A stretch of DNA of 29,852 bases from a virus, in the IMG/VR virus record IMGVR_UViG_3300025131_000273, positions 1 through 29,852 of that record; one strand, given 5' to 3'. Positions within the stretch are counted from its first letter, which is position 1; each line of letters starts with the position of its first letter. The notes under the pieces were generated by a model that saw only the letters and a program-made list of their open reading frames with translations, did no database searches and was not told the DNA's origin. The position numbers were made by a program, and so were the translations under genes. Below are positions 22,120 through 29,852 of this stretch, piece by piece.

Positions 22120-22806
22120 TTATCTCCCTGTTCGGTAGTCCTCCGACACGACCGGGATGAGCCATCGACCGGCCATCCCCTTGAGTCTCGACCCCGACCG
22201 GGGCCCGAGACGCTCGTCAAAATCGCTCGGAGAAATGTTGAGGGTCACCACGATCGGCAATCCCCTGATCTCACGTTCCTCGATCAACTCGTCGATCGAA
22301 TCGCGCGCATAGTCCGTATCTCGCATGGCCCCGACGTCGTCCAAGAAAAGCCAATCGCTCGAGATCAGATCCGCCATCACTTCCCGGTCACCCCTTCCCG
22401 ACTCGATGCCGGCTCGACGTGCATCGATGAGCCGCCGCACCCGCACAAAAAGGGTCCGGGGGCCCGTGATGCGGGCACAGGCCGCCGCTATATGCGTTTT
22501 ACCCGTCCCGGTCGGCCCGAATAACACGAGCGATTCGCGGGCCGCAATCCCCGCCCGGACCCACTCCCCGACGCGGTCGCGGGCGATCACGTCACCCGGG
22601 GGGCACTCGTAACCCCTGAGCGTTTTTTCACGATATGCACTCGGCAAAGGCCACGCCTCCGACAACCGGCGCTCGCGACGAAAGCGGACGGCCCGGACCT
22701 CGGGGGAATCTTGGCAAGCGTGCGCGGTCAGATCTCGTGAGAAAAAATGGCACCTCGGACAGATCCCCTCTGTCGCGAATGCGGATGTGGCGGCGACGTC
22801 AGGCAT
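22120..22806 (-). CDS. DnaC-like helicase loader (AAA+ ATPase)
   Basis: 228 residues from the ATG at 22806, which has GGAGG six bases upstream and overlaps the previous stop by eight bases. The N-terminus has Cys16, Cys19 and Cys31 in a small zinc-finger-like module. The ATPase core shows Walker A GPTGTGKT (97-104), Walker B W-L-F-L-D-D-V-G (152-159), a sensor 1 V-V-T-L-N (186-190) and an arginine-finger-like R-S-G-S-R-L-K-G. Such proteins load the host replicative helicase onto the phage origin. Adjacent to the replication initiator, like the O/P-type pairs of other phages. Confidence 0.85.
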   Translation of the reverse strand: MPDVAATSAFATEGICPRCHFFSRDLTAHACQDSPEVRAVRFRRERRLSEAWPLPSAYREKTLRGYECPPGDVIARDRVGEWVRAGIAARESLVLFGPTGTGKTHIAAACARITGPRTLFVRVRRLIDARRAGIESGRGDREVMADLISSDWLFLDDVGAMRDTDYARDSIDELIEEREIRGLPIVVTLNISPSDFDERLGPRSGSRLKGMAGRWLIPVVSEDYRTGR

Positions 22807-23614
22807 TGCCGACCTCCCATTTTGAGCGGTCGTCTCGATCCGTATAGGGTCGACGCCAGTCCGCTTTGCCATTCTGGCCCCGCTTTCCTTTAGTTTTTGC
22901 CGGGGGCGAGTTCATCGCCTCCTGGATCACCGACGAAACGCCCGCCAGCGTCGTGGAGACCTTCGTCCAGTGGTCATTCTCGCCGGCCCACAGCCTCAGT
23001 ATCGCCGGCCAGATCTTCGCCGGGGGATAGCGCCCGAGAAGCTGATCGACCGCCGGAGAGTCCCGTTCGTCGCTCCAAACGTATTCGAGGCCCCCATGAT
23101 GCTTTGCATATTCCCCGATAAACCTTTTCACGAATTTCAAATTATCTCGCGCGCTTGCGCGCGTAGGGGGGTACTCCGATCCGATCCGATCCGATCCTGC
23201 GCGCGCGGGGGGACTGAGGTCTCCATGAGGGCTCACTGAGGCCTCACTGAGGTCTCCATGAGGGCTCACTGAATTACTAGGAGGGGGAAGAGAAGACGGC
23301 ACCGGGCGGTTAATCTTTTGATGGCGAGACCACCCAAGAATCGCGATGAGGGCGTGGCCCTCGGACTCGTATCGGATGAGCTTCCCGGCCTCTTCGAGAA
23401 GTCCGAGCCATTCGTCGACCTGTGCATGGGTCACGTCGTCGTCGAATCCGAAAACGACCTTTCGGACGCGCCGCGCGCTCGCCCTGATCCGGCCCTCGTC
23501 GTCCGCCATCGACCATAAACCGACGTAGAGGAGCCGGGCGTCACGGGGCAATGATCCGATCGACTCCGAATCCCAGAACTCGGGCTTGATGCAACGAATC
23601 CGGGGGCGGCTCAC
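22799..23614 (-). CDS. Replication initiator (O-like/DnaD-like) with embedded origin
   Basis: 271 residues. Residues 1-105 look like a winged-helix DNA-binding domain (F-W-D-S-E-S-I-G-S-L-P-R-D-A-R-L-L-Y-V-G, then D-D-E-G-R-I-R and an HAQVDEWLGLLEEAGKLIRYE helix-strand). Residues about 108-157 form a low-complexity linker whose DNA carries direct repeats. Residues about 160-235 form a helical domain (NLKFVKRFIGEYAKHHG, PPAKIWPAILRLW, TLAGVSSVIQEAM) expected to contact the helicase loader or helicase. This arrangement, origin iterons in the linker between two domains, is that of lambda O. GTG at 23614 with GGGAGG eight bases upstream and a GTGA overlap with the HTH gene. Confidence 0.75.
   Translation of the reverse strand: MSRPRIRCIKPEFWDSESIGSLPRDARLLYVGLWSMADDEGRIRASARRVRKVVFGFDDDVTHAQVDEWLGLLEEAGKLIRYESEGHALIAILGWSRHQKINRPVPSSLPPPSNSVSPHGDLSEASVSPHGDLSPPARAGSDRIGSEYPPTRASARDNLKFVKRFIGEYAKHHGGLEYVWSDERDSPAVDQLLGRYPPAKIWPAILRLWAGENDHWTKVSTTLAGVSSVIQEAMNSPPAKTKGKRGQNGKADWRRPYTDRDDRSKWEVGNA
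23148..23267. other. Predicted replication origin inside the initiator gene
   Basis: Within 120 bases lie a perfect inverted repeat (23148-23154 with 23157-23163, cgcgcgc-tt-gcgcgcg), four tandem CCGAT units (23176-23195) that create four GATC sites 5 bp apart, a GC alternation (23200-23207) and five 11-bp iterons (23213-23267). An AT-rich stretch, about 23130-23147 (gaatttcaaattatct), lies next to the inverted repeat and could melt first. The layout resembles the lambdoid origin in gene O. Predicted from repeats only. Confidence 0.65.
23213..23267. repeat. Five tandem 11-bp iterons
   Basis: Units in order: actgaggtctc, catgagggctc, actgaggcctc, actgaggtctc, catgagggctc, followed by a partial actga. 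The consensus is [ac][ca]TGAGGnCTC. The spacing of 11 bp is close to one helical turn, so bound protein would sit on one face. The middle unit contains the palindrome TGAGGCCTCA with its neighbour. The period is not a multiple of three, so the encoded peptide repeats only every 11 residues (SPHGDLS twice). Confidence 0.85.
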
Positions 23615-25319: not shown

Positions 25320-26117
25320 ATGACGAATCAAATAGCATTGGACCGAATGAGAAACTCCACCGCCCCGGCCCCCGCGTCAGGGGCCACGCCCGCGCCGCGA
25401 TCGGCGCTCGAGGATATGATGGGGAGGGCGATGCCCTACATCCAGCAATCCCTACCCGCTCATTTGACGCCCGAGCGTCTTCTCCGCCTCGCTATCACCG
25501 CGGTCAACCGGACGCCGGGGCTCGCCGACTGCGACACAAAGACGATCGTCGGGGCGATCATGACGGCCGCGCAATTGGGGCTCGAGCCCAATACCCCGCT
25601 GGGTCACTGCTACCTCGTGCCCTACTCAAACCGAAAGGCCCGCGTAAAGGAATGCCAGTTGATCGTGGGATATCAGGGTTTCATAGACCTTGCCTATAGA
25701 TCCGGTCGAGTCCTATCGATCCAAGCCCGCGCGGTCCGGGCGGGCGATCACTTCGCATATCAGTATGGACTCGAAGAGAAGCTCGAGCACCGGCCCGGGG
25801 ATCTGCGGGGCGAGATATCGCATTTTTATGCGGTGTGCCGCATGAAGGACGGGGGCCACGCATTCGTTGTTTTCTCTCGCCCCGAGATGGATCAGATCAT
25901 GGCGGAGACCGCGTCAAAAGGCCGCCATGGGCCATGGAGAGATCACTTCGAATCGATGGGATGCAAGACGGCGATCCGACGCCTGCAAAAGTTCATCCCG
26001 CAGTCGGTCGAATGGGCAAAAGCCGCGGCGGTCGACGAGTCGTCACCGACAATGGTCGACGATCTAGACCTATCCACGCTGTCCCAAGAATCCGAGCCCG
26101 CCATCGTTGAGGAATAA
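25320..26117 (+). CDS. recT: RecT-type single-strand annealing protein
   Basis: 265 residues from the ATG at 25320, which has GGAGG eight bases upstream. The RecT core is clear: P-E-R-L-L-R-L-A-I-T-A-V-N-R-T-P, then an I-M-T-A-A-Q-L-G-L-E-P segment, L-G-H-C-Y-L-V-P-Y, Q-L-I-V-G-Y-Q-G-F-I-D-L-A-Y-R-S-G, and G-C-K-T-A-I-R-R-L-Q-K-F-I-P near the end. It anneals complementary strands exposed by the YqaJ nuclease, giving a two-protein recombination system of the RecE/RecT kind. The last 25 residues are acidic (DDLDLSTLSQESEPAIVEE) and may contact partners such as SSB. A structured RNA element starts at its stop codon. Confidence 0.93.
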   Translation: MTNQIALDRMRNSTAPAPASGATPAPRSALEDMMGRAMPYIQQSLPAHLTPERLLRLAITAVNRTPGLADCDTKTIVGAIMTAAQLGLEPNTPLGHCYLVPYSNRKARVKECQLIVGYQGFIDLAYRSGRVLSIQARAVRAGDHFAYQYGLEEKLEHRPGDLRGEISHFYAVCRMKDGGHAFVVFSRPEMDQIMAETASKGRHGPWRDHFESMGCKTAIRRLQKFIPQSVEWAKAAAVDESSPTMVDDLDLSTLSQESEPAIVEE

Positions 26118-26182
26118 TCCGCGCCCAATCCTACTACTAACCGGCGCCGGGCTGGGCGCGGATCGTCATTTCGCCCGGCGCC
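26117..26182 (+). promoter_or_regulatory. Predicted H-type pseudoknot in the recT-ssb leader
   Basis: Two perfect inverted repeats interlock. Stem 1: 26117-26127 (atccgcgccca) with 26153-26163 (tgggcgcggat), 11 bp. Stem 2: 26143-26152 (ggcgccgggc) with 26173-26182 (gcccggcgcc), 10 bp. The left arm of stem 2 touches the right arm of stem 1 with no base between, and loops of 15 and 9 bases would cross the stems, a classical pseudoknot geometry. No U-tract follows, so it is not a simple terminator. It ends 25 bases before the ssb ATG. The stems may instead be alternatives to each other. Confidence 0.7.
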
Positions 26183-26207
26183 AAGACTTAAAGCAAGGGC
26201 CCAATAA

Positions 26208-26633
26208 ATGAGCGTCAACAAAGTCATTATCCTCGGCAATTTAACCGCCGACCCCGAGACCCGGGGCGGGGTGACAAAGGTCAGAATCGCCACCAACGAA
26301 CGATGGAAAGACCGCGAAGGCGCGCTCCAGGAGCGCACCGAATACCACCGCGTTACCTTTTTTGGACGCGCGGGGGAGATCATTGGGGAGCATTGCCGCA
26401 AGGGTCGACCGCTTTATGTCGAGGGCCGCATCCAGACCAGCGAATATGAGAAGGATGGGGAGCGGCGATGGTCGACTGAGATCGTCGCCCGAGAGTTCCA
26501 ATTCGTCGGAAGTCGCCAAGACTCGGCCCCCGCTTCGACCGCCGCCCCCGCGCCCGCCCCCGATGGGGACGGGTACCCGTGGCGCGAGGCCGGCGCGATC
26601 GACGGGGCTCCCGAATCAGAGATTCCATTTTGA
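26208..26633 (+). CDS. ssb: Single-stranded DNA-binding protein
   Basis: 141 residues with the bacterial SSB OB-fold: V-N-K-V-I-I-L-G-N-L-T-A-D-P-E at the start, R-I-A-T-N-E-R-W, E-Y-H-R-V-T-F-F-G-R-A-G-E-I, K-G-R-P-L-Y-V-E-G-R-I-Q-T and the E-K-D-G-E-R-R-W-S-T-E-I-V-A block. A flexible Ala/Pro-rich linker leads to the acidic tip S-E-I-P-F, the partner-binding tail that recruits repair and replication proteins. It protects single-stranded DNA and works with the exonuclease and RecT encoded just before. AAGGGC lies upstream of the ATG, downstream of the predicted pseudoknot, which could let SSB control its own translation. Confidence 0.95.
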   Translation: MSVNKVIILGNLTADPETRGGVTKVRIATNERWKDREGALQERTEYHRVTFFGRAGEIIGEHCRKGRPLYVEGRIQTSEYEKDGERRWSTEIVAREFQFVGSRQDSAPASTAAPAPAPDGDGYPWREAGAIDGAPESEIPF

Positions 26634-29766: not shown

Positions 29767-29786
29767 GCCTCGCGCCCAAATGACGT

Positions 29787-29837
29787 AATGACAAATTGAC
29801 AAAAGTCCCCTTTCCGACTTTTGTCAATTTTGTCATT
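29787..29837. terminator. Long AT-rich hairpin, probable bidirectional terminator
   Basis: Arms 29787-29807 and 29816-29837 pair along their whole length except for one bulged base; the 8-base loop is ccctttcc. Each arm carries the repeated words TGACAAA and TTGACAAAA, so the second arm is T-rich on either strand, as in rho-independent terminators. It lies 20 bases after the lipoprotein stop and stands out from the GC-rich surroundings. If the ends of the window join, it separates the convergent lipoprotein and amidase genes. Confidence 0.75.
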
Positions 29838-29852
29838 GGGTGTTTTCCCTCC

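Follow-up and report, generated by a model that had tools for sequence, protein, structure and literature searches.

A predicted H-type pseudoknot between recT and ssb of a phage as a candidate cis-acting leader element

The gap between the recT and ssb genes of this phage is largely filled by a pair of interlocking perfect inverted repeats, which would form an H-type pseudoknot with loops of 15, 0 and 9 nt; the repeats were read directly and their folding is predicted. The interlocked fold is highly non-random, far beyond chance. Judged from its sequence and position, the chances are about even that the knot is a cis-acting control element for ssb, working on translation or on mRNA stability, and it probably helps to set the amount of SSB. 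All positions refer to the window, which is the complete virus record of 29,852 bases.

Structure and genomic context

Stem 1 was formed by 11 bp (11/11 complementary) and stem 2 by 10 bp (10/10 complementary), and their inner arms adjoin with no base between them. This is the arrangement that the initial annotation had described, and its arms were confirmed as given. The range proposed there (26117–26207) was correct in placing the knot from the recT stop codon, but the knot itself ends at 26182 and the rest is linker. The knot spans 66 nt (26117–26182); its first base doubles as the third position of the recT stop codon, and 25 nt separate its end from the ssb ATG (26208). The features of the region are as follows:

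25320–26117, + strand: recT, stop codon TAA at 26115–26117 (PF03837 RecT, E 1.8e-49)
26117–26127, + strand: stem 1 5' arm, ATCCGCGCCCA, 100% complementary to 26153–26163
26128–26142, + strand: loop 1, 15 nt, ATCCTACTACTAACC, read from the sequence
26143–26152, + strand: stem 2 5' arm, GGCGCCGGGC, 100% complementary to 26173–26182
26153–26163, + strand: stem 1 3' arm, TGGGCGCGGAT, adjoining stem 2 (loop 2 of 0 nt)
26164–26172, + strand: loop 3, 9 nt, CGTCATTTC, read from the sequence
26173–26182, + strand: stem 2 3' arm, GCCCGGCGCC, pairing with 26143–26152
26183–26207, + strand: A-rich linker, 25 nt, with little structure of its own and a weak Shine-Dalgarno sequence AAGGG (about 26194–26198), read from the sequence
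26208–26633, + strand: ssb, 141 aa, bacterial-type SSB with C-terminus ...SEIPF (PF00436 SSB, E 6.1e-26; solved bacterial SSBs match)

The identity of the neighbours as RecT and a bacterial-type SSB, proposed earlier from the letters, was borne out by both domain matches. The two genes are preceded by a gene for a YqaJ-type exonuclease. A recT–ssb fusion by stop-codon read-through was rejected: ssb shares the frame of recT, but an in-frame TAA stands directly before its ATG. The linker has 12 A among its 25 bases, a GC content of 40%, and one UUAAA and one UAAA beside the ribosome site. Its A-richness, remarked on earlier, is thus real but not distinctive, since a stretch of equal length before recT contains 11 A and such a composition is ordinary for this phage. 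A perfect 15-bp inverted repeat, AAATTGACAAAAGTC/GACTTTTGTCAATTT, was also observed at the right end of the record (29778–29846), within a longer imperfect one and past the last + strand ORF.

Chance level of the knot

No other knot in the window had 7 bp or more in each stem. Dinucleotide shuffles of the window (n=60) yielded 0.48 knots per shuffle with stems of at least 7/7 bp and zero at 8/8 or more. In 140 Mb of Markov-simulated sequence with the dinucleotide make-up of the window, one knot of at least 10/10 bp appeared, corresponding to about 2e-4 per 29,852 nt, a rough value that derives from a single event. The fetched phage and prophage loci (1.77 Mb) contained 26 knots of at least 7/7 bp, two of at least 8/8 and none of at least 9/9. 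The simulated rate predates any counting of placement, and as the knot also fills the intergenic gap, a chance origin is still less likely.

Stability and alternative folds

The stacking energies were −27.1 kcal/mol for stem 1 and −28.2 kcal/mol for stem 2. For the whole knot, a rough estimate with a Dirks-Pierce-type penalty, as distinct from a pseudoknot partition function, gave about −46 kcal/mol, versus about −31 kcal/mol for stem 1 together with the best nested fold of the remainder. The pseudoknot penalty of the Dirks-Pierce model is 9.6, and by general A-form geometry a 9-nt loop should be sterically able to cross 11 bp. Either hairpin alone was more stable than its shuffles (z of about −2.9 each).

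When the arms of stem 2 were taken up, the bases of the Shine-Dalgarno sequence were mostly unpaired (0.55–0.98), and part of the start codon could still pair inside ssb. In the nested ensemble, loop 3 and the 3' arm of stem 2 paired with most of the Shine-Dalgarno G's and with the AUG. An on/off switch through this start-site-hiding fold was considered and rejected, with a z of −0.49; because the fold is no better than that of shuffled sequence, a selected switch is not claimed. Within loop 3, TCATTT (26167–26172) is the reverse complement of AAATGA (26206–26211) across the ssb start, which makes pairing with the start site possible, in a fold that stands at chance level.

Search for relatives and other ssb leaders

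Exact-peptide searches with RecT, TerL and YqaJ retrieved no relatives, and the same search with SSB retrieved 12 SSBs with 37–49% identity. Alignment and profile searches reached at most 55% identity for RecT and 37–56% across the matched segment for SSB, and no similar leader was present among the RecT and SSB relatives from the alignment searches. None of these was near enough for an analysis of stem covariation, and the collections may lack records very near the window's own. DNA similarity with phages and plasmids covered the SSB coding sequence only (about 68%). An exact search with the central 19-base block of the knot returned 17 contigs, none of which carried both partner arms, and these matches were judged to be due to chance. 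Among the fetched loci that preceded the later profile searches, ssb followed recT directly in only two, with spacings of −1 and 4 nt.

Of 93 ssb leaders from other phages, none contained a knot with stems of at least 6/6 bp, where shuffles would give 0.7. This result, together with the fact that no sequence relative retrieved carries the element, stands against a cis-acting role. Hairpins were no commoner in these leaders than in shuffles, and the idea that phages generally have structured ssb leaders was discarded. The distance from the upstream ORF to ssb had a median of 3 nt in other phages, and 10 of 91 gaps exceeded the 90-nt leader of this phage. A leader of this length is thus in itself unusual, and no other phage in the sample shared the long leader with its knot. 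In an unrelated phage (L006:2441–2474), an 11-bp perfect hairpin behind a TATAAT-like box ends 27 nt before the ssb ATG, a placement similar to that of the knot, yet approximately at chance expectation over the sampled loci.

Proposed role of the knot

The most likely role suggested by the sequence is that of a leader element that leaves the start of ssb open and separates the gene from recT, with a possible effect on mRNA stability. Segment 26117–26182 would fold as a stable H-type pseudoknot in the recT–ssb mRNA and act in cis on ssb. With its own GC-rich strands tied up in the knot, the Shine-Dalgarno sequence of ssb would be accessible, and ssb would be started independently and not by ribosomes that finish recT. 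The Shine-Dalgarno sequence lies outside the knot, and the knot lies at the edge of an initiating ribosome, which favours a separating leader element that acts in cis.

Counted from the first base in the P site, the leading edge of a ribosome lies at about +16. For a ribosome that terminates on recT, with the stop codon in the A site, this edge would fall at 26127, the last base of the 5' arm of stem 1. Since that arm would be covered by the ribosome, translation of recT would open stem 1, which would refold once the terminating ribosome is released. A protein with a preference for the knot, most obviously SSB, could then nucleate on it and silence ssb by covering its start. Such autorepression by SSB leads among the specific versions of a cis-acting control, and separation of recT and ssb expression is at least as likely as autoregulation.

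Alternative explanations

The same position would also suit an insulator, or an mRNA-processing or stability element, that acts without a protein ligand and gives recT and ssb different levels, either by blocking the 3'-5' decay of recT mRNA or by shielding a processed ssb mRNA at its 5' end. Stable intercistronic structures that act on decay or processing are well known in bacteria, and the knot is very stable, starts exactly at the recT stop codon and adjoins terminating ribosomes. A single hairpin would suffice for this purpose, with no obvious need of an interlocked second stem, and we consider this explanation possible but less probable than a control element for ssb. A partial transcription terminator or attenuator between both genes is very improbable: the stems are stable, GC-rich and intergenic, but neither is followed by a T run, and no terminator-like site was called on the + strand at the knot. 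No promoter-like site was found for ssb.

Perfect Watson-Crick repeats are identical on both strands, so the sequence alone does not separate an RNA from a DNA function. The knot could thus be a DNA-level element, either single-stranded DNA folded in replication or recombination, or a two-part site for a dimeric protein, and its interlocked repeats are symmetric on both strands; a role in single-stranded DNA was also weighed by the authors of the STAXI motif before RNA was favoured (PMC2864571). Nevertheless, the site is flanked by genes that run in the same direction and sits right where one translation stops and the next starts, and neither arm has a second copy anywhere in the 29,852-nt window. 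A better origin candidate is found elsewhere, at 23213–23272, where iteron-like 11-base units (TCAGTGAGCCC / TCATGGAGACC / TCAGTGAGGCC, − strand) lie inside an ORF (22799–23614, − strand) just ahead of an IstB/DnaC-like ATPase (22120–22872, − strand); this is a candidate origin, which would lie within a replication gene like that of lambda in O. A DNA-level role is accordingly regarded as improbable.

Comparison with known pseudoknots

The initial annotation had regarded such control of a bacterial-type SSB as, to its knowledge, not described for such phages. This was somewhat too strong, since STAXI (RF01728) is a described pseudoknot motif that often occurs near SSB and other DNA-handling genes; it is found in Enterobacteriales, where two or, more usually, three pseudoknots stand in tandem, often with UUCG tetraloops (PMC2864571). 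Both share the proximity of a pseudoknot to a gene for a single-strand-binding protein, but the knot described here is not STAXI: it is present in one copy, with open loops and no tandem repeat at the site. The STAXI covariance model gave no match at the gathering threshold nor at E values up to 10. Searches of Rfam at gathering and permissive thresholds returned nothing on the coding strand, and only chance-level matches on the antisense strand. The S15 knot of E. coli overlaps the ribosome site, whereas in this phage 25 nt separate the end of the knot from the start codon, and the gene product is SSB. Likeness to rpsO (ribosomal protein S15) lies in the presence of a pseudoknot in an mRNA leader, which in rpsO exerts autogenous control (named in PMC3014915).

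Resemblance to the gene 32 operator of T4, which had been suggested at the outset, holds for the layout and for the presence of the knot in the leader of a genuine SSB gene (PF00436). In T4, T2 and RB69, an H-type pseudoknot lies 5' of the ribosome site of the SSB gene, and the RNA after it is less structured and carries UUAAA/UAAA elements (PMC535899, PMC3014915; the operator is reviewed in the latter). In gene 32 of T4 and RB69, the knot measures about 28 nt, and the less structured RNA behind it extends over more than 40 nt and contains several UUAAA/UAAA; in T4 both parts are required for repression (PMC535899). The T4 knot is situated 67 nt upstream, whereas in this phage a 66-nt knot with GC-rich stems of 10–11 bp, predicted from the perfect 11/10 bp geometry, is followed by a linker of 25 nt with one UUAAA and one UAAA.

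In a mechanism of the T4 type, excess phage SSB would nucleate at the knot, spread across the linker and block the ssb start. The order of the parts, a linker with little structure of its own and a downstream gene for an SSB are all consistent with it. On the other side, this SSB belongs to a family unrelated to gp32, the A-richness of the linker is almost equalled upstream of recT, no knot was present in the other sampled phage PF00436 ssb leaders, and the linker is short both for the repeats that T4 requires and for a bacterial-type SSB tetramer, which wraps about 35–65 nt. The action of a bacterial SSB on mRNA would not be unheard of, as E. coli SSB reportedly binds mRNA (Shimamoto and colleagues, 1987). 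By analogy with T4, an operator of this type is possible but doubtful in this phage. Slightly more doubtful is that the knot represents a second case of SSB autoregulation through a pseudoknot, evolved independently of that in T4 for a bacterial-type SSB in a recT–ssb operon; it would be coupled to recT translation because an arm of stem 1 lies under the ribosome stopped at recT.

Implications

Even in the case of no protein ligand, a knot set precisely between the stop of one gene and the weak start of the next would be a simple model for the uncoupling of neighbouring genes in one mRNA. If the autoregulatory version is true, SSB self-control by a folded leader would have arisen more than once, and this leader would offer a clean test of the action on mRNA of bacterial-type SSB, a widespread protein.
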